From a virus, in the IMG/VR virus record IMGVR_UViG_3300035698_017492, positions 1 through 36,531 of that record: DNA of 36,531 bases; one strand, 5' to 3'. This document shows, in pieces, positions 321-14,014 of the stretch; within the stretch, counting starts at the first letter, position 1; each line of letters begins with the position of its first letter. A model generated the notes under the pieces. That model did not search any database, was not told where the DNA came from, and worked only from the letters and a program-made list of their open reading frames with translations. The position numbers were made by a program, and so were the translations under genes.

Positions 321-353
321 ATCACCCTGGAATCACCCTGGAATCACCCTGGA
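321..353. repeat. 11-bp tandem repeat at the polymerase stop
   Basis: Three consecutive copies of an ATCACCCTGGA-type unit occur here. On the minus strand each copy carries a TGA, and the polymerase reading frame ends in the copy at 344-346. The repeat therefore overlaps the 3' end of the gene and extends into the untranslated region. It looks like slippage-type duplication. Confidence 0.8.
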
Positions 354-3250
354 ATCACAATTTTTCCATCATCCCCACTTGCAATCGCCCAATTTTTATT
401 TGACGTTCCACACGAAATTCTCAATGGTACTCGAAATTTGATATTTGTATTTTCAAATTCAGCTTTGATTTTTGAAAGTACAGTCAAATCTTTACTCAAA
501 CCTTTTGGTGCGTAGTGCGCGACCTCATCGTGAACACTAGCAAAATTCTTAATTCCTAATTCTCGAATCATTTTATTGTATCTTGGAGCCAATGCTACCA
601 TTCTCTCTTTAATCACATCAGCTGCACAGGATTGTACGATTGTGTTAAACGCTCTGAACGCTGCTTTCTCTGGCAAGTTTCTCTGTCGACCATACAGATT
701 AAAAACATACCCACGAGAAATCAAATTGTCTCGTGCTTGCGTTGTCGTTCGCTTTATTCCTGGCAGTGTGTCATGATATTCTTGGTAGACCTGTTCTCCA
801 CGTTGATTACAAAGTAATTGAAAAATCTTTTCACGTGCAGCAATGTTTGCTTTTCCACTTGAAATAATTGCATCAGCTTTCTCTGCAAGATGTCCAACGA
901 GTGACATATCAAGTGACAACATTGAAACAACTTTCGCTTTACCTCCACCAAACGCAATTGCAAAGTTAACATTTTTTGCAGGCTTACGAGGTATCTCACA
1001 CATATCTGCGACCCACTGATGAAAGTCTGTATCTGGATTTTCTGCAAATGCTGCAATAGCTTTTGCATCTTTGATATATGAAATAATTATTCGGAATTCG
1101 ATTTGAGAATTAAAATTTACAAGGCCATTTGTTGTAATGTAACATCCTGTATCTGGAACAGTGATACTATAAAACCAATCATCACGTACATATTCTACTT
1201 TTGATACTTTGTAATTTTTTTGTCTAAATCCATTGGCCATTGTTCCACGATTTGAACATTCTTGCGAACAGTAAATTCTAAATGCTTGGCTGGGTATAAC
1301 ATCTCGCTTCTTGCCACAGTATTCACAAGTGATCGTTACTTTTCTTTTTGTTCTAGATTTCTTCCATCCAATTTTTCGACACTCTTCACTACAGTACTTC
1401 TTTGACTCTCTTTGTGATGGCCAGCATTCAATTGGATCTCCACAAACTTCACATGCAAATATTGCTTTCCCACCTTGCCAATTTGGATTATTCGATCCAT
1501 CATACGTTCGACGATTCTTCAAAGCATCTCTAAGCTTTTCAATTCGTAGTGTGTGATCTTGAACTTTGTAATTTTCTTTTGCATGCTCAGATGCATGATC
1601 AAACGAATCTTTTAGTTCCAAGTTATCAATACACCAATCTTCTTTGTTTTTATCCTTATGGTGCACATGCTCAAAGTATCCATCTATAGTTTCATCAGTA
1701 AAGTATTGCATTGACAATATGTGCTTGTATTTTATACCTCTACCTAAACCCCAAGAAGGATACTTTCCCTTTTTAGAATCTTGAACGTGCTTTAATCTCG
1801 TTCCACTTTTAAGATCACAGCAATTAATTCTCTCATTATCTAATGTCAAGAATCCATGATCCTTAGTACACTCAAAAGTTGAACCATCATCAAAAGTAAT
1901 TCTATAAATTGCACCACGACCGACTCGTGCACCTCTTGAAGTTTTACAGAACTTTAAGTCTTTACCGTTCTCAAGACTTAAAACAGGTAAGAGATTTTCA
2001 GCAACTTCTTCAATAGGTTTGTCACCATAGGGTGTAGGAATTTTAGTCCCTGCTGGTAGGCAATAATCCCAACTAAGTATTTCTTGATCCTCCGGTGGAT
2101 GTATCAATGCCTTTGCTTCTTTGGACAACTGTTGAGAGTTCGGTCGACGGCATGACATCCTACCAGTTCTAACTATTTGATTGTAATCTGGATGCATTAA
2201 TCCATTGATTTGATGTTCTTGATATGGCTGTAGAAAAATACTATTCAATGTGTGCATCTTTCTATATTTTTGGATCTTCGTAACAATGCTCATCAACTCA
2301 GGAGATTCTTTGACAATTGGATAAGACAAGTACGACAACATCGCAGCTTTGTTAAATGACGGTTTGTTAGATGACGGTTTGTTAGATGACGGTTCATTCT
2401 TGTCGGTGTACCCCATCACGGGTAGACCAAACCTATTGCATAGTACTTCGAAGCAATCTGCGTTAGTGTGAGGTCGAATTGCAAATCCAGTTAACTTGTG
2501 TAATTCTTCTTCAAGCTCCAAGAGCTTATATAAGACAACAACTTGGTTCTTTGTTATTTCCAATGGATCGACACAAAGCCCTGTAACTTCCATGTCATAT
2601 AAAACAGGTGTCAAAAGTATTTCCGTTTCCCAAATACCTTTTGTCTGTTCGTGACGACGACGCAGCATGTAATTATATAACTTACGATTAGTTAAGACAT
2701 CTTGGCAACCATACTCTCCGATTATATCTCCAGGCACGTCGCCGTAGTCTTTACTTTTACATCCTGTTAAGTAATTTTGCAATCTGTTGTCAAGATACGA
2801 AATATCTTCTTCAAGCCATTCACTAGATAAGTCTGCGAGCTTGTGCGAAAACCTGTCACTGTTGATTATTTTTGCAAGTGTTAGAGTGTCAACTAAACGA
2901 CAATCAAAGTCTATTCCATCCTGCTTTAAAAAATGTGCGTCAAACTTAACATTATGATTCACCCAGTCGGTACATGAATTAACAGTATCACGTGTCCAAT
3001 TAATCACACCCTCTATTGGTAGATTCCAACCAGGTCTATGACATCGAATTGGTAGATACCATGCTCCTTTAATATCATCAGCAGTGACACCAATTCCACA
3101 GATTCGATGCCCATGATATGGCTTGAACGCTTTGACCTTTGGATCAAAAGATGTTGTCTCAGTATCAAGGTACAGAGACTTAGCATTTTTTAGATTTGGC
3201 AGTTCACTGAGACTTTGAACAAGTCGTCCACCATTTTCAAATTCAATCAT
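344..3250 (-). CDS. polA: Family A DNA polymerase interrupted by an intein
   Basis: Replicative DNA polymerase of the Pol I family, 968 aa before splicing and about 650 aa after. The proofreading 3'-5' exonuclease is present: LDTET with D29 and E31, the NHNVKFD segment near 98-104, and Y180...D184. The polymerase has motif A (DY395-396 joined to SQIE at 715-718 after splicing), motif B around R755-K759-F763-F767, and motif C H907-D908-E909. No 5'-3' exonuclease domain is seen. The residue matching E. coli Tyr766 is Phe767, which is unusual. Residues 284-301 hold an SSNKP repeat. The start ATG at 3250 has AGGA about eight bases upstream. It is the last gene of the replication operon. Confidence 0.95.
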   Translation of the reverse strand: MIEFENGGRLVQSLSELPNLKNAKSLYLDTETTSFDPKVKAFKPYHGHRICGIGVTADDIKGAWYLPIRCHRPGWNLPIEGVINWTRDTVNSCTDWVNHNVKFDAHFLKQDGIDFDCRLVDTLTLAKIINSDRFSHKLADLSSEWLEEDISYLDNRLQNYLTGCKSKDYGDVPGDIIGEYGCQDVLTNRKLYNYMLRRRHEQTKGIWETEILLTPVLYDMEVTGLCVDPLEITKNQVVVLYKLLELEEELHKLTGFAIRPHTNADCFEVLCNRFGLPVMGYTDKNEPSSNKPSSNKPSFNKAAMLSYLSYPIVKESPELMSIVTKIQKYRKMHTLNSIFLQPYQEHQINGLMHPDYNQIVRTGRMSCRRPNSQQLSKEAKALIHPPEDQEILSWDYCLPAGTKIPTPYGDKPIEEVAENLLPVLSLENGKDLKFCKTSRGARVGRGAIYRITFDDGSTFECTKDHGFLTLDNERINCCDLKSGTRLKHVQDSKKGKYPSWGLGRGIKYKHILSMQYFTDETIDGYFEHVHHKDKNKEDWCIDNLELKDSFDHASEHAKENYKVQDHTLRIEKLRDALKNRRTYDGSNNPNWQGGKAIFACEVCGDPIECWPSQRESKKYCSEECRKIGWKKSRTKRKVTITCEYCGKKRDVIPSQAFRIYCSQECSNRGTMANGFRQKNYKVSKVEYVRDDWFYSITVPDTGCYITTNGLVNFNSQIEFRIIISYIKDAKAIAAFAENPDTDFHQWVADMCEIPRKPAKNVNFAIAFGGGKAKVVSMLSLDMSLVGHLAEKADAIISSGKANIAAREKIFQLLCNQRGEQVYQEYHDTLPGIKRTTTQARDNLISRGYVFNLYGRQRNLPEKAAFRAFNTIVQSCAADVIKERMVALAPRYNKMIRELGIKNFASVHDEVAHYAPKGLSKDLTVLSKIKAEFENTNIKFRVPLRISCGTSNKNWAIASGDDGKIVIPG
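1109..2062 (-). mobile_element. Intein with HNH endonuclease in DNA polymerase motif A
   Basis: Polymerase residues 397-714 (318 aa) form an intein. It begins Cys397-LPAGT, the usual block A pattern, has a block B-like GST..CTKDH near 456-465, and ends with a block F/G-like segment finishing Phe713-Asn714 before Ser715, the +1 nucleophile. Removing it restores DYSQIEFR, the catalytic motif A. An HNH-type homing endonuclease lies inside: H530-H531-x-D533, N543-L and H552/H556. Two CxxC...CxxxC zinc knuckles follow (C600, C603, C620, C624; C642, C645, C661, C665). The penultimate residue is Phe where most inteins have His, so splicing may be slow or assisted differently. Confidence 0.92.
2351..2395 (-). 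repeat. 15-bp coding tandem repeat (SSNKP)
   Basis: Three consecutive 15-bp units, differing by one base each or less, encode PSSNK-type pentapeptides in the polymerase between the exonuclease and palm regions, near residues 286-300. The repeat is in frame, so it lengthens a linker without breaking the gene. Confidence 0.85.
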
Positions 3251-3286: not shown

Positions 3287-4180
3287 CTATATTAACTCAC
3301 CATTTTCGTCTAAATCAAAATTACACCACAATGATTCAACGCGCTTAGATATAAAGATACTTGATCCACTGGTTGTACCTTTGTCGTGTCGAGTCCAAGA
3401 TTTTAATGCATTGTCGTACAACGTACTTCGATACCCTGAAATCATAACAGATGCTTCTAAGTCATTAATCACTTCAAGTAATTCTTTGTGATCATCAACA
3501 GACATTTCATATTTATAAGCTTTTGTTGATACTCTAGTCTCGTGTAGATATGGTGGGTCCAGATAGAAAAGAGTTTTCCAATCATCCTCGCGTTTGATTA
3601 CTTTGATTGCGTCATCATTGTAGATTACAACTCGCTTCAGCCTGTCATGAAGTTCTGAAAGACTATCAACAACTTTCAACCATGCTGATGTAGACACTTC
3701 CATATTAGACGATAATGATTTCCTAGTCATAGGTACAAATATTTTGCAACATCCTGCACGAGATTGTCGACAACGAACGAAGAACGCAACAGCAGCAGTG
3801 ACGTCGCAACCGTCAATCATTCGATTCTCAATAGGCATCATCAATGCTTCAGACTCTTCCCAGATTTGTTGGCAGAATGGAGTTGCTTCAATGATTCGTC
3901 GAAACTTTTCAAATGCATCAACGTTCTGAAGAACTTTCCAAAAATTAGTAAGTCCTCCATGAACGTCGTTAACAATTTCACTCTTGCCTGTCTCACTAGA
4001 TTCCATTCCCCATCGATGACGTTTGTCCATAGGATTTTTACGCATTAAAACTGCAAGTCCACCGGCGTATGGTTCAATGTAAGTCAAGTGTCTTGGCATT
4101 AGTCCAATGATCCAATCAGCAAGATAAAATTTCCCACCAAACCATTTCAATGGTTGTTTCGTTACTTTAAATTCTGGCAT
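3287..4180 (-). CDS. D12-class (Dam-like) adenine-N6 DNA methyltransferase
   Basis: This 297-aa protein has the layout of Dam-type alpha-class enzymes: the SAM-binding PLKWFGGK motif near residues 10-17, EPYAGG at 36-41, NDVHG near 71-75, and the catalytic DPPY at 208-211. It would transfer a methyl group from SAM to adenine N6 in a short target, which cannot be read from sequence; GATC is possible. The ATG at 4180 has GGAG five bases upstream, inside the end of the preceding methyltransferase gene, so the two are translationally coupled. No restriction endonuclease lies nearby, which fits self-protection or regulatory methylation. Confidence 0.9.
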   Translation of the reverse strand: MPEFKVTKQPLKWFGGKFYLADWIIGLMPRHLTYIEPYAGGLAVLMRKNPMDKRHRWGMESSETGKSEIVNDVHGGLTNFWKVLQNVDAFEKFRRIIEATPFCQQIWEESEALMMPIENRMIDGCDVTAAVAFFVRCRQSRAGCCKIFVPMTRKSLSSNMEVSTSAWLKVVDSLSELHDRLKRVVIYNDDAIKVIKREDDWKTLFYLDPPYLHETRVSTKAYKYEMSVDDHKELLEVINDLEASVMISGYRSTLYDNALKSWTRHDKGTTSGSSIFISKRVESLWCNFDLDENGELI

Positions 4181-4897
4181 TTATTCTCCAAAGAATTTAT
4201 CAAGTGCGTCATCAAGTTTCTTATCTTTAGGGTTTCTATAATTTGGATCTATTCGAACAGCAGCATCATCGAAATAGAATCCATCTAACTCAATGCCGAT
4301 GAAACTCCGATTCAAATTTACACACGCTACACCAGTTGTGCCACTGCCCATGAAAGGGTCTAAGACTGTATCGTTTTCAGAAGTAAGAGCTTCTATAATC
4401 TTACTTAAAAGTAGAATAGGCTTCTCGTTTGGGTGTGTTAAATCCAAGGCATTTACACGACAAACTCGGATGATAGTTTTAGGTCTTTTACTTTTAAAAG
4501 TAAAAGATCCTTTTGTTGCATAAAGAATATTTTCATGTTGTGGTGCAAATGATCCTTTCAAATCTCCCATTCCATGAATTACCTTATCCCATATAATCTG
4601 AGACTTAACTTTAAATCCTGCCTTTGTAATTTCATCACGAAATATATCTTCCACATCCCATCTTTCAAAACAGATAAGTCTTCCAGTATTTACAAGTACT
4701 CTAAACGCTTCTGGCAGCCACTCTACATAAGATTGTTTGTCATTTTCTATTTTGTCTTTCCACTGATTTTGATCAGTTCTCCGGCAAGACTGATAATCTA
4801 TTCCATATGGAGGATCAGCCAGAACCATATCAACCGATCCATCGGGGATTGATTTCATTTCTTCAAGACAGTCACCATGTATTAGTTCAATGGACAT
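4181..4897 (-). CDS. Beta-class N6-adenine/N4-cytosine DNA methyltransferase (copy 1)
   Basis: This 238-aa enzyme has the beta-class motif order: DPPY at residues 28-31 first, a variable target-recognition region in the middle, HPNEKP near 155-160, and the SAM-binding DPFMGSGTTG at 180-189. Its first 30 and last 65 or so residues are nearly identical to the second copy at 5637-6401, but the middle is different, so the two probably recognise different DNA targets. The start has GAGGA seven bases upstream and overlaps the end of the upstream small zinc protein by 11 nt. DPPY alone does not separate adenine from cytosine specificity. Confidence 0.9.
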   Translation of the reverse strand: MSIELIHGDCLEEMKSIPDGSVDMVLADPPYGIDYQSCRRTDQNQWKDKIENDKQSYVEWLPEAFRVLVNTGRLICFERWDVEDIFRDEITKAGFKVKSQIIWDKVIHGMGDLKGSFAPQHENILYATKGSFTFKSKRPKTIIRVCRVNALDLTHPNEKPILLLSKIIEALTSENDTVLDPFMGSGTTGVACVNLNRSFIGIELDGFYFDDAAVRIDPNYRNPKDKKLDDALDKFFGE

Positions 4898-5168
4898 TTA
4901 CCATTCCTCGTTCTAAGTGTCGTGTTCTAATAAGTTCTTGTACTATTTCTTTTCGTTCCAGCGTAAGAATTGCACCAATGCATTCATATTGGTATCTTAC
5001 TTTGTTTCGATTACTTCTCAGAACCATTCTCTTGTTTACAATCTTCGCTTCGATACATCGATCTTCGTACTTCGATCTATTGTATGCTGAATGGCATGCA
5101 CGACAATGATTTGTCTTCTTATATGCAGCAGGATTCTTATGACATAGGCTACAAATTGTACTTTTCAC
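4887..5168 (-). CDS. Small zinc-knuckle protein, possible HNH-like DNA binder
   Basis: A 93-aa basic protein beginning at a GTG codon with AAGGAG eight bases upstream. The N-terminal half has CxxC (C6, C9) and a second CRAC pair near residues 22-25, followed by HSAYNRSKYE. This resembles the zinc-binding head of phage HNH or endonuclease VII-type proteins, but I see no full nuclease motif. It overlaps the genes on both sides, 20 nt upstream and 11 nt downstream, so it is part of the methyltransferase run. Function unknown. Confidence 0.7.
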   Translation of the reverse strand: MKSTICSLCHKNPAAYKKTNHCRACHSAYNRSKYEDRCIEAKIVNKRMVLRSNRNKVRYQYECIGAILTLERKEIVQELIRTRHLERGMVNVH

Positions 5169-5631
5169 CTTTAGACTCCTTTAAAATTGCTTTAAGATTT
5201 GGCGGTTTGTAGTTCTCACCTTTATCTCTACAACGTGGATCAGCCTTTGAATCACGTTTCTTCTTTGTCAAATTGGAATCGCATACTTCCATTGTGCCTT
5301 GATCTATTGGTAGTCTAAAAGTTTCAGCAGTTCCCATTGCTACAAATACCAAATCGCAAAGACCATCAAACAATTCTTCTTCATTACAATTTGCCAATCC
5401 TAAAATAGTCTCACACATCTCTTCAATTAATAACTGAGCTTGATGCAATCTTGGGTCTGTCTCACCTACCAATATGTCTTCGATCTGCTCAGACATTTCT
5501 AGCAGTACTCTTGCCTTGCATCTAAGGTAGTCAGATATCTCGGTATTCCTAAGACAATCATTTAAATCTTGATCAAGTATAAAACCCTGGTTGTCATGAA
5601 ACTGTCTTACTTTTTCTATATGTGTTTTCAT
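5149..5631 (-). CDS. MazG/HisE-like NTP pyrophosphohydrolase
   Basis: A 160-aa all-alpha protein resembling the MazG/phosphoribosyl-ATP pyrophosphohydrolase superfamily. The signature is a Glu-rich helix pair: LIEEMCE near residues 67-73, NEEELFDGLCDLVFVAMGTAETF near 83-105, and the C-terminal KGENYKPPNL common in phage members. Acidic residues E69, E70, E73, D89 and D92 would hold Mg2+ for removing pyrophosphate from a nucleoside triphosphate. Phage members probably tune nucleotide pools or clear modified nucleotides, and the setting among DNA methyltransferase and replication genes fits that. It starts five bases after the upstream methyltransferase stop. Confidence 0.75.
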   Translation of the reverse strand: MKTHIEKVRQFHDNQGFILDQDLNDCLRNTEISDYLRCKARVLLEMSEQIEDILVGETDPRLHQAQLLIEEMCETILGLANCNEEELFDGLCDLVFVAMGTAETFRLPIDQGTMEVCDSNLTKKKRDSKADPRCRDKGENYKPPNLKAILKESKGEKYNL

Positions 5632-5636
5632 TTATT

Positions 5637-6401
5637 CTAATCTCCAAAGAATTTATCAAGTGCGTCATCGAGTTTCTTATCTTTAGGATTTCTATAATTT
5701 GGATCTATTCGAACAGCGGCATCGTCGAAATAAAACTCATCTAACTCAATGCCAATGAAACTTCGATTCAAATTTCTACACGCTACACCAGTTGTGCCAC
5801 TGCCCATGAAAGGATCTAAAACTGTGTCGTTTTCGTTTGTCAGAATTTCAATCAATTCTGACATCAATCTAATGGGTTTTTGATTTGGATGATTGCCATA
5901 AACTTTTTCATTGCCTGGAGTTAATCCCATTATAAAGTCTCCATGATGGATACTCTCTAAATTAAATGTATATTTACCTTGTTTTATTGCATGAATAAAA
6001 TATTCTCTGCCGGGAACAAATCTTCTTTTCCACTCTGCTGGTTGTGGATTCACTTTTTGCCAATGATTTAAAGACTTCACTTTAGCGCCAATATTTCTAA
6101 TCTCTTTTGCGATGTCCCCCATGTTCTCCCAATCATTAAAAATAATGAAGTGCCCGCCTTTCCTCAGGCACTTCAATGCTACACTGATCCATTTCAATTG
6201 ATCAAATCCTGTATCATAATCCATTGTCTTATCACTATAGTTATCAGTGCCATCCTTTTGTGATTGCCTGAATAAATGTATACTTCCTCCCATTTTCTCA
6301 ATCAGATTAAAAGGAGGATCAGCTAAAATCATATCAACTGATCCATCAGGAATTGATTTCATTTCTTCAAGACAATCACCGTGTATTAATTGTATAGACA
6401 T
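5637..6401 (-). CDS. Beta-class DNA methyltransferase (copy 2)
   Basis: A 254-aa paralogue of the enzyme at 4181-4897. It has DPPF at residues 28-31 instead of DPPY, the HPNQKP segment and DPFMGSGTTG in the C-terminal part. The N-terminal 30 and C-terminal 65 residues match copy 1 almost exactly, while the central recognition part is unrelated. It probably methylates a different site. DPPF is tolerated in some active members but could alter activity. It follows the primase-helicase gene with a 6-nt gap and may share its transcript. Confidence 0.88.
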   Translation of the reverse strand: MSIQLIHGDCLEEMKSIPDGSVDMILADPPFNLIEKMGGSIHLFRQSQKDGTDNYSDKTMDYDTGFDQLKWISVALKCLRKGGHFIIFNDWENMGDIAKEIRNIGAKVKSLNHWQKVNPQPAEWKRRFVPGREYFIHAIKQGKYTFNLESIHHGDFIMGLTPGNEKVYGNHPNQKPIRLMSELIEILTNENDTVLDPFMGSGTTGVACRNLNRSFIGIELDEFYFDDAAVRIDPNYRNPKDKKLDDALDKFFGD

Positions 6402-6407
6402 TATGTT

Positions 6408-9287
6408 TTAAAATTCCTCATTAATGAAGTCTGGCCTTGCATTGAGCTCCATTTCTTCAGATACTAACAACGCTTTCAAAAACTCAATGAACTTAGGTGT
6501 CTTGCGATAGCCACGACCATCTCGTTGTAGTGCGTTCTTACGCACAAGCAAAGAAAGTAACTGTGCAGTAGGGCCTTTGTCCCACCCACACCAATCACAT
6601 ATATCCCTGAACTCAATTAGATTAGTGTACAACAGCTGCTGCACAAAGTCCTCTGGAAACGGTGACTGCAAGATACGTTGTGACAATAACTTTGGGTTCA
6701 ATAAAGTGTTGGTAGCACTAACGGCTTTGCTGAAATCACGATATCCAAAGACACTTTCTGAATAGGTTTTCTCAAGATATTTTGTAATGTACTCAACGTG
6801 GCACTTTCTTACTATCACTTTGTGCAAGTCATCATCTGACACTGAGAACGTTCGGCATGCCAACGCAATTGACAATCTACAAAGCTTAAATCTCATTGAA
6901 CCACGATCAACGATGGGAATAATCTCTGTAAACATTGTACAAAGTCTCGTTGCTTCATCAAGAATAAAATCAACCGCTTCATCTGTGAATGTCACTTGTT
7001 CAGTCGTTCGTGTCCACGCCCAAAGAATTAGTGACTTACTTAATTTCGATGTATGTTTGTGCTCAACATGTGGCCTATACTTTTGGAGTTTATTAAGCAC
7101 ATCCGATTTGATCTGAGTTGACGCTGTGATTAAGACCGTATCGAATCGTCGTATGTCTTCAAGACTACCAATCAATTCCTTCACAGCTTCAATACCAAAA
7201 TTATATGAACTGATCGGCAAGTCACTGCGTGGATTGCTCACCATGATTAATCTTGTTCTGGCATGGGTTCGTCGTTTTTCAATTTTTGGAATTTCTGCAA
7301 CTCCCGACGAACGCATGTCTGTAAGTTTTCCAATAACTTCAACACTTGTTCCTTTGATTTCTTCGAGGATGACAAGCCTTTTATCATGAGTCGGTATGAC
7401 ACCCCATGTGACAAACCACCGATTACCAGAACTGACCTGTTGTAAACCTCCGAGTAATCCTGCGACCGTGGCGTTTTTACATTCAATTCTCTCTCCGAGT
7501 CCATAATGCTCCATTAATCTTAAAATCGCTTCTGATTTTCCCTGTGAACTGTCCCCAGTAATTAAAGTCTCTACCCAACCTTTTGTAAGCTTACCATCGA
7601 ACTTGAATAACAACGCACTGTGATACGTCAAGTCAATCACAAAGTGTAGTGGTTGTCGTTCAAAAATGTGCGTGATGTTTGCAGACAAGTCATCATAGAT
7701 GTCTTTCAATTTTTCGTCTATGGATTCTACTGTCCACTCTTCTGGTTGAAAAACTTTTAATTCACTAAGCTCGTCGTCACTAGGTTGAAAATTTGACAAT
7801 GCATCTTCAGTGGTCTTTGATTCACTGATTAAAATTATACTCTGTTGTGTTTTTGGGTGGGGGTACATCCTACCAATGAATTCATAATTTTCATTGGTCT
7901 CAAGACCATGACCGACGCACAAAGCTGGTTGTAAAATGTCATCTACAGATCGTGAACTAATCTCAAGCTGTGGGGATAATCTTATGTCCTCAACGTTATA
8001 ATATGTACTTGGTTTGAATTCAACATTTTTACATGTGGGTATGTGCAAACCTTCCATTAATGAATCTCGTTGCCCGACTTTCGATGTCGCTACCATCTCC
8101 AATATTGCAGGTGACTCAGGATGTAATTCAATACTTACCATCCCATCTTCACCAGGATTTTCTGCAAAGATCGGGCATATACTACATCCATTTTGGTTTC
8201 TGTCACAGCTAACTTTTATTTTCTTAGGTATAACATATGGTGCAGTGTCCATTGCTGTCACTGTTGCTTTTATTCTGATTCGTTTACCCGTGTACTTAGC
8301 ACGTGATGCTTGGTTCAAATGTAGATCAATAATCTCTGTACTTGACTCAGCGCTTACTTCAAAAATAGACTCCCATTCAGGGGTTTCTTCCATGAGTCTA
8401 ATGAAACTCGGTCCAGTTTTCTTCTCTGGTCCGAAGTAATCATTAACATCACCTGTTGGATATTTTTCAATGTCCAGCGGTAATAGCATATTGTGGATTT
8501 TGCTTGCATCTTTCTTCAGTCTAGCACAAACAGAATCAGATGCTTTTCTTCCCTCTTTGTCTATGTCGTAACACACAAACACTTCTTTAGATTTAAAGTG
8601 TTGGTTGAAACTTATTTCCCAGTTACCTTCGCCTGCTGTTGCAGTAATTGCACCGATGCCTTTACGATTTAATCTTGCAGCTGCAACAATGGCCTTAATT
8701 TCTCCACCGCACAAAACTATTTTGTCATACTTTAATTGATCAAGAGGGAACAATCTAATCTTGCCATGTCCTCTTTTATTTTTCATTTTTTCAGGACCAG
8801 GAGCACCTGGTAGATACCTACGGACATTGACAGTAATTCCATTTACATTTGTAATTGGTATACTGATTCTGCCATCATCAAATCCTAACCTATATTTTCT
8901 AATGTCCCTGTCTGTCACACCCCTGTCACGTAGTGCTTTTAATAAAGGTTTCGCAGTCCAAATATTTTCATGCCATCGTTCAACGGCACTTGTGTCTATA
9001 GGCTTTACATTTTCAATTGCGTATCTTTGTGACAAACTTTCCCACATCACAACACGAGTTGTGCTTAGTGCTTTCGCTAAAAATGAAACTAGATCTCCCT
9101 TAGCCCCACAACCAGCAGTATGACATTTAAACAGATTCTTCTTTAGATTTATGGAGCAGCTTGGAGTTTTATCATCATGAAAAACACACTTAACTTTCAC
9201 CTCGTTGTCTGTTGCAAACTCGTAGGCTATACCGCACCGTTCAAGCTCCGCAAGACATCCAATACTTTGTAGTTGTTGCTCTGTCAT
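6408..9287 (-). CDS. Primase-helicase: CHC2 and TOPRIM primase fused to MCM-like AAA+ helicase
   Basis: A 959-aa replication protein. Residues 34-60 form a DnaG-type zinc finger (C34, H37, C55, C60). A TOPRIM core follows, with GGE194-196 and DID at 241-243, so this end should make RNA primers. Residues about 330-440 look like an MCM N-terminal OB fold with a zinc ribbon (C361, C368, C371). The AAA+ part has Walker A GDSSQGKS (578-585), Walker B LVILEE (638-643), sensor 1 in SNP near 684-686, IRRFD at 712-716 like the MCM arginine finger, and an MCM-like DRGSMRFKLCRL near 794-805. It ends in a probable winged helix. The start lacks an obvious Shine-Dalgarno and lies 19 nt below a terminator-like hairpin. 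Confidence 0.88.
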   Translation of the reverse strand: MTEQQLQSIGCLAELERCGIAYEFATDNEVKVKCVFHDDKTPSCSINLKKNLFKCHTAGCGAKGDLVSFLAKALSTTRVVMWESLSQRYAIENVKPIDTSAVERWHENIWTAKPLLKALRDRGVTDRDIRKYRLGFDDGRISIPITNVNGITVNVRRYLPGAPGPEKMKNKRGHGKIRLFPLDQLKYDKIVLCGGEIKAIVAAARLNRKGIGAITATAGEGNWEISFNQHFKSKEVFVCYDIDKEGRKASDSVCARLKKDASKIHNMLLPLDIEKYPTGDVNDYFGPEKKTGPSFIRLMEETPEWESIFEVSAESSTEIIDLHLNQASRAKYTGKRIRIKATVTAMDTAPYVIPKKIKVSCDRNQNGCSICPIFAENPGEDGMVSIELHPESPAILEMVATSKVGQRDSLMEGLHIPTCKNVEFKPSTYYNVEDIRLSPQLEISSRSVDDILQPALCVGHGLETNENYEFIGRMYPHPKTQQSIILISESKTTEDALSNFQPSDDELSELKVFQPEEWTVESIDEKLKDIYDDLSANITHIFERQPLHFVIDLTYHSALLFKFDGKLTKGWVETLITGDSSQGKSEAILRLMEHYGLGERIECKNATVAGLLGGLQQVSSGNRWFVTWGVIPTHDKRLVILEEIKGTSVEVIGKLTDMRSSGVAEIPKIEKRRTHARTRLIMVSNPRSDLPISSYNFGIEAVKELIGSLEDIRRFDTVLITASTQIKSDVLNKLQKYRPHVEHKHTSKLSKSLILWAWTRTTEQVTFTDEAVDFILDEATRLCTMFTEIIPIVDRGSMRFKLCRLSIALACRTFSVSDDDLHKVIVRKCHVEYITKYLEKTYSESVFGYRDFSKAVSATNTLLNPKLLSQRILQSPFPEDFVQQLLYTNLIEFRDICDWCGWDKGPTAQLLSLLVRKNALQRDGRGYRKTPKFIEFLKALLVSEEMELNARPDFINEEF

Positions 9288-10310: not shown

Positions 10311-10369
10311 TTCATTACATTCATTTTTCATTACTTCATTACATTCATTTTTCATTACATTCATTTTTT
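10311..10369. repeat. ATG-rich short direct repeats between early genes
   Basis: On the minus strand, ATGAATGTAATGAAAA-like units recur about three times, starting right at the stop codon of the heptad-repeat gene and ending near the start of the SSB-like gene. They contain many ATG and TGA triplets but no long frame. It is probably duplicated spacer; an effect on translation re-initiation is possible. Confidence 0.6.
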
Positions 10370-11167
10370 CTTTCGCTTTGTGAGGATTTCATTCAATGCT
10401 TCATCTTTATTTTTCCCTTCCTCAGAAGCACCTTCGAGTAATTCTAATACTTCATCCAAGCCCTTGTAGGGGGTTATACGCATTGAATACCTTGTATAGG
10501 TGTTTTCAATATTTATTCCTGCAGGCAGTGGTTTCCCTTCCTCTGCAAGATTTGAAATATGCTCCATGACACCGGGCCAATAAGGTTTCACCGTATTGTT
10601 TGCAATAGCAGTTGTGTCTACACCGAGTGCGTCCATAAAAGCATTAAATGCTTCTGGCTCACGTCGTTGATTTGGAATTGCTGCTGCAATTTTTACATTT
10701 GGTGTGCCTGTTGCTAACGCTGCACGAATAGGGTTGTCTTGCTCATTTGTAACCCAGATTGCGCACGCAACATTGATTGCAATTTGTTCAACGCCGTTGC
10801 ACTCTTTACGAAGATCCTCTGAGAATTTTGAAATATCTCTAAGAATATAAATTGTATTAACCATTGCATTCATATCATATTTACCAGATCTTATTTCATC
10901 TCTGATATCAGATACGCATCTGTAGCAGTCTAGATATGTCTGTCTCATCTGCTTGTACTTCAGCAACAAACCATGCAACTGTTTTGTTGATTTACTCACT
11001 ACCTGCTTTGATTCACTCATTGATTGCTTTGATTCACTCATTGATTGTTTTGATTCACTCATTGATTGTTTTGATTCACTCATTGATTGTTTTGATTCAC
11101 TCATTGATTGTTTTGATTCACTCATTGATTGTTTTGTTTCACTCATTGATTGTTTTGTTTCACTCAT
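10361..11167 (-). CDS. Early phage protein with N-terminal heptapeptide repeat
   Basis: A 268-aa protein of unknown function. The first 56 residues are eight tandem heptapeptides, MSETKQS or MSESKQS. A helical region follows (about 60-130), then a C-terminal domain ending in TKRKKK. Every repeat contains an in-frame ATG, but only the first (11167) has a ribosome site, AAGGA seven bases upstream in a leader shared with the two genes before it. The repeat is Ser/Lys/Gln rich and probably disordered or helical. The body resembles uncharacterised phage proteins that sit beside SSB or recombination genes. Confidence 0.75.
   Translation of the reverse strand: MSETKQSMSETKQSMSESKQSMSESKQSMSESKQSMSESKQSMSESKQSMSESKQVVSKSTKQLHGLLLKYKQMRQTYLDCYRCVSDIRDEIRSGKYDMNAMVNTIYILRDISKFSEDLRKECNGVEQIAINVACAIWVTNEQDNPIRAALATGTPNVKIAAAIPNQRREPEAFNAFMDALGVDTTAIANNTVKPYWPGVMEHISNLAEEGKPLPAGINIENTYTRYSMRITPYKGLDEVLELLEGASEEGKNKDEALNEILTKRKKK
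11000..11167 (-). repeat. Eight 21-bp coding tandem repeats
   Basis: A 21-bp unit is repeated eight times with one or two base changes, encoding the heptapeptide MSESKQS. A ninth degenerate unit (VSKSTKQ) follows. Near identity at the DNA level points to recent expansion by slippage. The frame is kept because 21 is a multiple of three. Confidence 0.95.
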
Positions 11168-11169
11168 TA

Positions 11170-11187
11170 CTCTGTCCTTTCCAATCT
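11170..11187 (-). promoter_or_regulatory. Shared ribosome-binding leader, copy at the heptad-repeat gene
   Basis: The minus strand reads GGAAAGGACAGAGTAATG before the start at 11167. The same 18 bases occur before the starts at 11391 and 11609. Here and at 11609 the match continues upstream through AAATCAGATT, so these two leaders share about 28 bases. AAGGA lies seven bases before ATG, an ideal spacing. Confidence 0.75.
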
Positions 11188-11190
11188 GAT

Positions 11191-11391
11191 TTACTTTAAT
11201 TCATTAGCTATTCTTTGTGCTTTCCGAATTTTACTCCTGTAATACATATACAGCTGCGTATACTGTTCTTGCATTATACCTTGCCTCTTTGCCACTGTGC
11301 GATTTTCAGTAATGCGTGCTTGAATTAGAAGATCTAATTCATTTAAAACTTCACGTAGCTCTTTGATCTGATGTGTTTTAGTCTTTGCCAT
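11191..11391 (-). CDS. Small helical early protein
   Basis: A 66-aa basic protein, rich in Lys, Arg, Glu and Leu, likely alpha-helical or coiled coil throughout. Its ATG at 11391 overlaps the TAA of the gene upstream (TAATG) and is preceded by GGAAAGGACAGAG, the same leader used by two neighbouring genes. No family recognised. Translational coupling indicates it is real. Confidence 0.7.
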   Translation of the reverse strand: MAKTKTHQIKELREVLNELDLLIQARITENRTVAKRQGIMQEQYTQLYMYYRSKIRKAQRIANELK

Positions 11392-11609
11392 TACTCTGTC
11401 CTTTCCTTCTCATTGAAACTGTTCACACTAGGATTATTTAATTCGTCATACATCCAATTAGGTTCAATGTCTGCCCAAGACCAACCTTCAACACCATCTA
11501 CATGCAGTGAAAACTTTGGTTTTTCATCTGGCATTTCAGGGTGCTTAATTCCAAGCAAAATTTCTTCAAGCTTAGATGCAATCATTTGCTTTTCTGATTT
11601 ACTAAACAT
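11391..11609 (-). CDS. Small acidic early protein, unknown
   Basis: The start at 11609 gives 72 aa (MFSKSEKQ...). I prefer this ATG over an upstream one at 11696 because it is preceded by GGAAAGGACAGAGTA, the leader shared with the next two genes, and because the longer version would overlap the upstream gene by 95 nt. It overlaps the upstream stop by 8 nt and the downstream start by one base. The product has an N-terminal helix and a Trp-rich middle (WSWADIEPNWMYDEL). Function unknown. Confidence 0.7.
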   Translation of the reverse strand: MFSKSEKQMIASKLEEILLGIKHPEMPDEKPKFSLHVDGVEGWSWADIEPNWMYDELNNPSVNSFNEKERTE

Positions 11610-11949
11610 TACTCTGTCCTTTCCAATCTGATTTTCTAAAAATTCTTTCAACGTAATCACTACTACTCGAATTGAATAGTAGAACTTTGAACTCATTGTA
11701 TTCTTGCGCGATTGCTACCAGTGACACAGACAACGTGACAACTGATCCAACAACACAGATATAATCATCATTGAAATTAAAATGACAATCTACCAATTGC
11801 TTTAGGACTGCTTGACCAAACCTTACATTGTCAAACACTCCGACGCGCCTTTCATTTGGTTTAAATAAATACTCAATGTCACCAAATTTCTCAGCACTTG
11901 AAGTATCAATGAAAGATTTCAATGGTTCAATAATAAATACCTTAGACAT
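11602..11949 (-). CDS. Phage hypothetical protein beside the SNF2 helicase
   Basis: Start taken at 11949 (MSKVFIIE..., 115 aa), where ATG overlaps the helicase stop and AGGGGTGG lies just upstream. A start at 11973 would give eight more residues. The central segment reads FDNVRFGQAVLKQL and DDYICVVGSVVTLSVS, with a hydrophobic stretch near residues 60-80 that looks like a buried strand and helix rather than a membrane anchor. It may be a small alpha/beta protein. No function can be assigned. Confidence 0.7.
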   Translation of the reverse strand: MSKVFIIEPLKSFIDTSSAEKFGDIEYLFKPNERRVGVFDNVRFGQAVLKQLVDCHFNFNDDYICVVGSVVTLSVSLVAIAQEYNEFKVLLFNSSSSDYVERIFRKSDWKGQSNV

Positions 11950-14014
11950 TTTCCACCCCTGTTCTTGGGACATAACTTAAAATCTTTTCCATGATACCTC
12001 TAACGTCTTGTAGTTTCACTGCATTTATTTTCTTATCAATAACACGACATGCAATTTCTTCATCTATAGTTTGTGGGAAAATTAAATCTGTGATCTGAAC
12101 TGAAACTCTTGTTCCTCTTCTCACTGCTCGATCTTCACTCTGTGATCGATGAATCATTGACCAACCTTGAGAGAAGTAAATTTCTTGTGTTGTATTGCAA
12201 CCATGATCTTTTGATGTTCCAACACACTCAGGTATGTGCCCCCATAAATCAAGGCCAACACCTCCAGCAGCAGGATTTCCAATAAAAACTTTTACATCTG
12301 GATCTTCGTTATATGATCTTTCTGCTTCAGCACGATCTTTATCGCTAGTGCCCCCGTAGTATGTGACATGCTTGATTCCTTCTTCTGTGAGTCTTTTTGA
12401 TAATATTTTTATTACATAAACCCAATTGGTCCAAATCAAAGTTTTATCTAATGGGCTTTTTGCTTTGAGGATTTCAACAACAGCTTCTACTTTTGGATTT
12501 GGTGTAATTTCTTCAATGTTGCCACCAGATTCATTTCCAGCATCATCAATTACTAGATCCCATTTAATATATCCAGAAGTGATCTGTGAAAGCCGTAGAA
12601 GTTTTGTAAGAATGTTATTCGCTGTCAATTGCTGATTAGTAGATCTTTCCATATCAGCTTTAATTTCAATGGCTAATCTTTTTTGCAAATTTATATAGCA
12701 TTCACGCTGAAACTTCGACATCTCAACTTCATAAATATCATAGGTCTTATCTGGAAGTTCGGGCATTGCTTCTTTGCGTGTGATCTGAAAGCAAAGTCGT
12801 GCGAATCGCTCTTGAAGAATTGGGAGATTTTGATACCCATTAAGAATTTCTCTGTGATTTTCATCTGCTGGCAGGAACTTTCCATAGTACTTTTTGAAAG
12901 CCTTGTATGTCGTGAAACCACTAAGACCTTCACCTAGCCATTCAAGTTGTGTCCATGCGTCAAATAAATTATTTGCAATTGGTGTTCCAGTCAATCCCGA
13001 ACGACTTTTACAGATTTCTCTTAGTTCAACTATACGTTTCCATCGTTTGGTTTTGTCACTCTTAATCATCTGTGCTTCATCGAGTGAACAATGATCCCAT
13101 TCTACCATGCGAATTGCTTCCCATGATTGTATGACGGATCCATAAGAACAAATCACAACGGTGTATTCACAACCGTCATCTTGTTTGAACGCTTCACACA
13201 TTAGTTTTACCCTATCAAGTTGATTTCCTTGCAGAACAGTCAACTTACCTGGATGCACAGCAAAGTCGATAAACTTGTTGTGCCAAGCCATTCGAACGCA
13301 TTTAGGAACGATGATCAATGCACGATACATTCGAGCTTCTTTTTTATATACCTCGTGTGCTTCGTAACAAACTCTTGAAATTATCACAGGAGTTTTTCCA
13401 GTGCCTTGCTCCCCCCAATGGTTTGCACCATCTTCATGTAATGACGAAAGCAATGCAACTTTCTGTGAACTCATTAATGGTCTGACTGGATGATCAATCC
13501 AATCTTCAGGCATGTCTGGAACGATTCCGTTAAGCTTGTATTCAGCTTTGATTTTAGAATTGAAAGTCTGTTTCACAAATCTTACTAACAAATAATCATA
13601 GACATTCTTCGCGTCGTCATCAAAAGAAAGTTTATCACTTTCCCAAAGTGCGTTAGTCAGAATAGCTGTGAAGTCAGTACATGCAACAAAGTATTGTGCA
13701 TTTCCCCAAGACTGGATGACTTTTCTTTCAGGAAGTCTTTGAACAAATCTTCTGTACATCCAAGATGGAGAAACTTTTCTGTCATCAGATGTAAGAGCAT
13801 AGAATTCAAAAACAAATCGTTTGCCTTTATCGTCGAGTGAGATGTGAAGTTTGTCGTTACGTGCAAAAGGAATACTCGTGAACAACCTTTTTGTAGAATC
13901 ACTTAATGGTTCGATGAACCTTTGTGTGATGGGGTCTATCGGGGGAGTGTTAGATATGATTTTTTGCGAGGATAATCTTAATTGTACTTTTGGCTCTGGT
14001 AAACACAATTGCAT
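11942..14014 (-). CDS. SNF2-family DNA helicase/translocase
   Basis: A 690-aa superfamily 2 ATPase. Walker A is GEQGTGKT (201-208), motif Ia follows as LIIVPKCV (233-240), motif II is DEAQ (312-315) and motif III LTGTP (341-345). The C-terminal lobe has TLIWTNW, NPAAGGVGLDL and the motif VI region SEDRAVRRGT. DEAQ and the motif VI arginines mark the SNF2 group, whose phage members move along duplex DNA in replication, recombination or transcription remodelling. It is the first gene after the consensus promoter at 14085-14113, with AAAGGA ahead of the ATG. The N-terminal 180 residues are not recognised. Confidence 0.92.
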   Translation of the reverse strand: MQLCLPEPKVQLRLSSQKIISNTPPIDPITQRFIEPLSDSTKRLFTSIPFARNDKLHISLDDKGKRFVFEFYALTSDDRKVSPSWMYRRFVQRLPERKVIQSWGNAQYFVACTDFTAILTNALWESDKLSFDDDAKNVYDYLLVRFVKQTFNSKIKAEYKLNGIVPDMPEDWIDHPVRPLMSSQKVALLSSLHEDGANHWGEQGTGKTPVIISRVCYEAHEVYKKEARMYRALIIVPKCVRMAWHNKFIDFAVHPGKLTVLQGNQLDRVKLMCEAFKQDDGCEYTVVICSYGSVIQSWEAIRMVEWDHCSLDEAQMIKSDKTKRWKRIVELREICKSRSGLTGTPIANNLFDAWTQLEWLGEGLSGFTTYKAFKKYYGKFLPADENHREILNGYQNLPILQERFARLCFQITRKEAMPELPDKTYDIYEVEMSKFQRECYINLQKRLAIEIKADMERSTNQQLTANNILTKLLRLSQITSGYIKWDLVIDDAGNESGGNIEEITPNPKVEAVVEILKAKSPLDKTLIWTNWVYVIKILSKRLTEEGIKHVTYYGGTSDKDRAEAERSYNEDPDVKVFIGNPAAGGVGLDLWGHIPECVGTSKDHGCNTTQEIYFSQGWSMIHRSQSEDRAVRRGTRVSVQITDLIFPQTIDEEIACRVIDKKINAVKLQDVRGIMEKILSYVPRTGVENV

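Follow-up and report, generated by a model that had tools for sequence, protein, structure and literature searches.

We found that a single phage gene encodes a DnaG-type primase and an MCM-like helicase in one continuous chain, in the window under study (the whole 36,531-nt stretch of viral DNA that was analysed). The two halves were tested separately, and both identities, first proposed in a sequence-only reading of this DNA, were supported. Bacteria use DnaG together with the 5'-3' helicase DnaB, whereas archaea and eukaryotes use an AEP primase with the 3'-5' helicase MCM. The fusion mixes the two sets in one chain, which suggests that a given type of primase is not tied to one helicase polarity. 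To our knowledge, a bacterial-type primase and an MCM ring helicase in one protein is a pairing not known from cells; the parts are ordinary and the pairing is unusual, within the known kind of phage primase-helicases. We consider it likely that the fusion is the phage's own primase-helicase, in which an MCM ring would travel 3'-5' while the primase at its front would prime the lagging strand.

In overall architecture, residues 1-311 form a complete primase of the DnaG/T7 type, consisting of a CHC2 zinc ribbon and a TOPRIM polymerase core, and residues 312-860 an MCM core, in which an OB fold with a four-cysteine zinc ribbon precedes an AAA+ motor; a winged-helix-like end comes after (Table 1). 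The structure prediction proposed with the earlier reading gave an AlphaFold model of the full protein with a pLDDT of 89.7, which matched both archaeal MCM (Z 30) and DnaG (Z 20). Our family alignment and profile comprised 59 non-redundant full-length proteins, the 959-aa protein included. The other 58 came from independent contigs and shared its architecture and catalytic residues. Since these independent relatives keep both, and cultured phages also carry the fusion, the joining of the two halves is far beyond chance.

Table 1. Positions of the fusion gene, its domains and the neighbouring cassette genes in the window
Feature	Position	Strand	Remarks
TOPRIM-primase/MCM-helicase fusion gene	6408..9287	(-)	single open frame, ATG start, 959 aa; full-length relatives exist
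CHC2-type zinc ribbon of primase	9018..9224	(-)	residues 22-90; C34, H37, C55, C60; PF01807; matches 1d0q
DnaG-type RNA polymerase core with TOPRIM	8355..9008	(-)	residues 94-311; E196, D241, D243; basic R140, R156, K167
MCM N-tier, OB fold and zinc ribbon	7788..8354	(-)	residues 312-500; C361, C368, C371, C419; AlphaFold strands; aligned to MCM N-tier
MCM AAA+ motor	6708..7787	(-)	residues 501-860; Walker A K584, helix-2 insert, Walker B E643, presensor-1 hairpin, sensor 1 N685, arginine finger R714, sensor 2 region K801/R804
C-terminal winged-helix-like domain	6411..6707	(-)	residues 861-959; helix-helix-helix-strand-strand order in AlphaFold model
Family A DNA polymerase, intein-interrupted	344..3250	(-)	PF00476, PF14890; presumed partner polymerase
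PRA-PH/MazG-like nucleotide pyrophosphohydrolase	5149..5631	(-)	PF01503; cassette member; in 37/81 loci
Pam3 gp34-like protein, 282 aa	9426..10274	(-)	PF23977; directly upstream of fusion; near fusion in 43/81 loci
Pam3 gp32-like gene	11602..11973	(-)	Pfam family named after phage Pam3 gp32; keeps place beside fusion in many phages
SNF2-type helicase of cassette	11942..14014	(-)	PF00176; near fusion in 54/81 loci

For the N-terminal half, Pfam, a PDB profile search and structural alignment agreed on the CHC2 zinc finger and TOPRIM core that had been read from the sequence. Pfam matched the CHC2 zinc ribbon at residues 30-91 (E 2.5e-9) and, weakly, Toprim_2 at residues 213-284 (E 5e-4). A PDB-wide search with the 59-protein profile led to DnaG-type primases (2au3, E 5e-24). 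Folded alone, the primase part reached a pLDDT of 95.8, and its core was aligned by VIA-align with Aquifex DnaG (2au3) at Z 19.6 over 205 residues (rmsd 2.8) and with T7 gp4 at Z 17-18. The C-terminal DnaB-binding domain of bacterial DnaG is absent, the residues past 311 belonging to the MCM and the winged-helix-like end; the N half is a DnaG-type primase module, not DnaG proper.

The C-terminal half was matched to MCMs from E 2e-7 in the PDB-wide profile search. MCM was the sole ATPase family found among the best 60 of 68 matches (E <=1): neither DnaB, SF3/D5 nor DUF927, to which the sequence-only reading had allowed that the AAA+ part might lie closer, appeared there, nor did Mg-chelatase or MoxR. 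In agreement with this, the best 50 PDB matches of the model in Foldseek were all MCMs, and VIA-align placed model residues 314-851 on SsoMCM 6mii (Z 30.2, 460 residues, rmsd 5.5), identity in the structural alignments with MCM being about 15%. The VIA-align matches listed were MCM only, a list from which absence does not exclude other families. Profile comparison by hhalign with archaeal MCM gave E 5e-14 for the C half and E 1e-13 for its AAA+ part, the latter alignment spanning Walker A, Walker B, sensor 1, arginine finger and sensor 2. The Pfam MCM P-loop match (PF00493, residues 541-721, E 0.0018) scored 17.9 bits, against a cut-off of 23.3 that is passed by the relatives from BSP7 (27.7 bits), Wollypog (24.0) and BboS-125 (49.7); because PF00493 was also matched in 14/14 control genomes, bacteria included, this match alone is unspecific. 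Of the MCM parts named from the sequence, the OB fold, zinc ribbon, AAA+ core and sensor 2 were borne out by the AlphaFold model and by structural alignment up to about residue 860, and the winged helix (861-959) stands at the level of predicted secondary structure only. Together, the profile and model comparisons support an MCM core in the C half.

Conservation was high in both halves. TOPRIM residues E196 and D241 were kept in 59/59 proteins and D243 in 58/59, with the CHC2 zinc ligands in 57-58/59. All four zinc-ribbon cysteines of the N-tier were invariant (59/59), as were K584, E643, R679, N685, R714 and K801; position 804 was R or K throughout (59/59), and the first Walker B acid, usually D, was E in 38/59 and D in 21/59. 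Judged by this conservation of catalytic residues and zinc ligands among the 59 proteins, the primase and helicase halves both look catalytically alive. Alignments to SsoMCM began at its residue 68-105, and the primase therefore seems to stand in place of the MCM helical subdomain A.

Like the fusion, T7 gp4 and Twinkle carry a CHC2/TOPRIM-type primase ahead of a ring helicase in a single chain, but the T7 helicase is of the RecA-fold SF4 class, moves 5'-3' and encircles the lagging strand, whereas that of the fusion is an AAA+ MCM. Archaeal MCMs (SsoMCM 6mii and 4r7y, and haloviral MCMs) have the same OB/zinc N-tier and AAA+ core (Z 28-30) and the same hhalign motifs, yet are free-standing and without a primase. 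The MCM half is already held by an existing family, PHROG 18685 (E 1e-86, fusion residues 314-938), which is labelled 'unknown function'; since the match is confined to profile positions 377-1012, the front part of that family is not the TOPRIM primase of the fusion.

A scan of viral contigs found 298 encoded relatives, and tblastn against phage records returned end-to-end relatives, including a metagenomic siphovirus at 44.5% identity. Cultured phages of Microbacterium, Arthrobacter, Bacillus, Weizmannia and Paenibacillus carry them as well. The 'DNA primase/helicase' proteins of Krampusvirus, Wollypogvirus, Bacillus phage BSP7, Weizmannia phage Youna2 and Paenibacillus phage API480 aligned end to end with the fusion at 25-31% identity, and are family members; most such relatives are annotated 'DNA primase' or 'primase/helicase', and MCM is unmentioned in the annotation of these five. 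In a bacterial genome collection only three matches were obtained, all in MAG contigs, which is consistent with a family residing mainly in lytic phages. No TOPRIM-MCM fusion was named in the literature searched; a prior mention is possible, a key viral-replication survey (2016) lying outside its coverage. We also observed a solitary MCM of the same lineage, 639 aa long and without a primase, on a contig binned as Candidatus Gracilibacteria (L092:2435-4351). It lies near genes for an ATP-dependent DNA ligase and a protein of the FtsK family.

A sister group carries a different primase. In Bacillus phage vB_BboS-125 and about 35 contigs, a PriS/PriL-type primase (PriS PF01896 plus a PriL-like part) stands in front of a homologous MCM module, which the A2 profile matched in BboS-125 with 500 bits over residues 365-1009. 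These proteins, which are probably of the B. cereus BcMCM type, share with the fusion the order of N-terminal primase and C-terminal MCM, but their primase is archaeo-eukaryotic and unrelated to the TOPRIM primase; Pfam found no PF01896 in the 959-aa fusion, where TOPRIM is present instead. One helicase is thus paired with two unrelated primases. In the MCM tree, AEP-MCM formed one clade (97-100) and TOPRIM-MCM one side of a weakly supported branch (72), with archaeal MCMs far off. The primase and MCM halves of the TOPRIM form diverged in step (r = 0.88, 1711 pairs), which indicates that primase exchange is rare. MCMs, in some cases together with AEP primases, have been described from mobile elements of bacteria (PMC5862659).

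As to mechanism, MCM rings are known to track along the leading strand in the 3'-5' direction, N domain foremost, and to exclude the lagging strand (PMC8426354). In the eukaryotic replisome the primase is held on the face of the N-tier, over the channel that runs between the MCM zinc fingers and lets the lagging strand out (PMC10501992). By analogy, six fusion chains would assemble into an MCM ring around the leading-strand template and travel 3'-5' with the N-tier leading. The excluded lagging strand would exit between the N-tier zinc fingers, where each chain would bear its primase, so that primers would be made at the front of the ring by a covalently held bacterial-type primase, and the family A polymerase of the phage would then extend them. 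This primer site would correspond to the docking position of Pol alpha-primase on the eukaryotic CMG. Ring formation, polarity and primase placement are here extrapolated from MCMs that are only distantly related (about 15% identity); the AlphaFold model, being of a single chain, shows neither a ring nor the position of the primase on it. Primase and OB fold are closely spaced, with 30-47 residues separating D283 and residue 320, and because the primase is joined by this short linker to the N-tier, before the OB/zinc domain, a eukaryotic geometry with a bacterial-type primase is the likeliest arrangement. More broadly, we lean, with less assurance than for this protein itself, towards a replisome that is widespread among phages: a bacterial-type TOPRIM primase would be carried foremost on a 3'-5' MCM ring and would prime the lagging strand, which the ring excludes, with one MCM lineage combined with either of two unrelated primase types. 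If true, nature would have performed a module-swap experiment in the replisome core, one MCM lineage having been combined with two primase types. The pairing is open to experiment, as fusion phages have been cultured on B. subtilis and Microbacterium foliorum. Coupling of a primase to a 3'-5' ring could be studied with one purified protein rather than with the dozens of subunits of the CMG replisome, and the AEP-MCM sister group offers a matched control for TOPRIM-MCM.

To place the gene in its context, we surveyed gene content in 47 virus records encoding the fusion family, the window included, most of them fragments. DnaB_C (PF03796) was found in 0/47 of these records and not in the fusion gene, although all 14 control genomes were matched; because many records are fragments, the missing DnaB is only suggestive, and the phage could instead borrow a host helicase. 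Exactly one CHC2 zinc ribbon, that of the fusion itself, was present in 45/47 records, and PolA in 40/47. The conserved cassette order is SNF2 helicase, gp32-like protein, coiled protein, gp34-like protein, fusion, pyrophosphohydrolase and PolA. As a guess, the gp34-like and gp32-like proteins might act as SSB or loader.

These data also bear on other explanations. The fusion might act chiefly in replication initiation, as phage P4 alpha and the SCCmec/SaPI Rep proteins do: it would recognise the origin, perhaps through the C-terminal winged helix, melt it and synthesise the first primers, with the fork using host DnaB. We regard this as unlikely, though not negligible. The winged-helix-like C end of the AlphaFold model would suit such a role, but archaeal MCMs carry a winged helix as well. 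Three iteron-like repeats lie just upstream in the cassette, and SCCmec Cch2 and SaPI Rep, which are initiator helicases that bind iterons, provide the precedent (PMC7581432). However, specific binding of the repeats is only putative, and the cassette brings its own PolA, which points to a self-contained fork. An initiator role is in any case compatible with a primase-helicase at the fork, the two being not strictly exclusive.

It is quite improbable that the TOPRIM part no longer primes and serves as an ssDNA-binding or loading module on the MCM helicase. Animal Twinkle, which lost priming and retained the primase fold (PMC3610141), is a model for such a change, but the near-complete conservation of E196, D241, D243 and the zinc ligands speaks against it, as does the absence of a second CHC2 primase from the fusion-bearing records. 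We give hardly any credence to the idea that the AAA+ half belongs with the ComM/Mg-chelatase or MoxR-type ATPases, would serve in recombination or remodelling, and resembles MCM because of the common helix-2 insert. The unspecific PF00493 match would allow it, yet ComM and RavA, tested directly by hhalign against the C half, fell far below archaeal MCM (ComM E 4e-4 to 1e-4, probability 34-56%; RavA/MoxR E 0.02-0.04), no such structure was among the best PDB profile matches described above, and an MCM-like OB and zinc-ribbon N-tier sits before the motor.

Several further features of the cassette of this probable primase-helicase were observed. The PolA intein carries an HNH endonuclease (PF14890, PF13392), and is apparently absent from many relatives, since their polymerase frames are shorter (~640-690 aa). 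The three iteron-like repeats are 24-nt direct repeats at 10311-10374, in the gap on the upstream side of the gp34-like gene, and may be an origin or a regulatory site. At its start, the coiled protein (10364-11167, minus strand) repeats a seven-residue SESKQSM unit about eight times in tandem, seen at the DNA level as 21-nt repeats within 10961-11191. The fusion also has three genes for DNA methyltransferases beside it (one D12, two N6_N4; 3287-6401, minus strand); they are present in only 2-4/81 related loci, and are therefore a recent or local addition. Finally, three identical 18-nt copies lie at 11165-11182, 11389-11406 and 11607-11624, and on the minus strand each reads as a ribosome-binding site and ATG (GGAAAGGACAGAGTAATG), that is, a repeated translation start.
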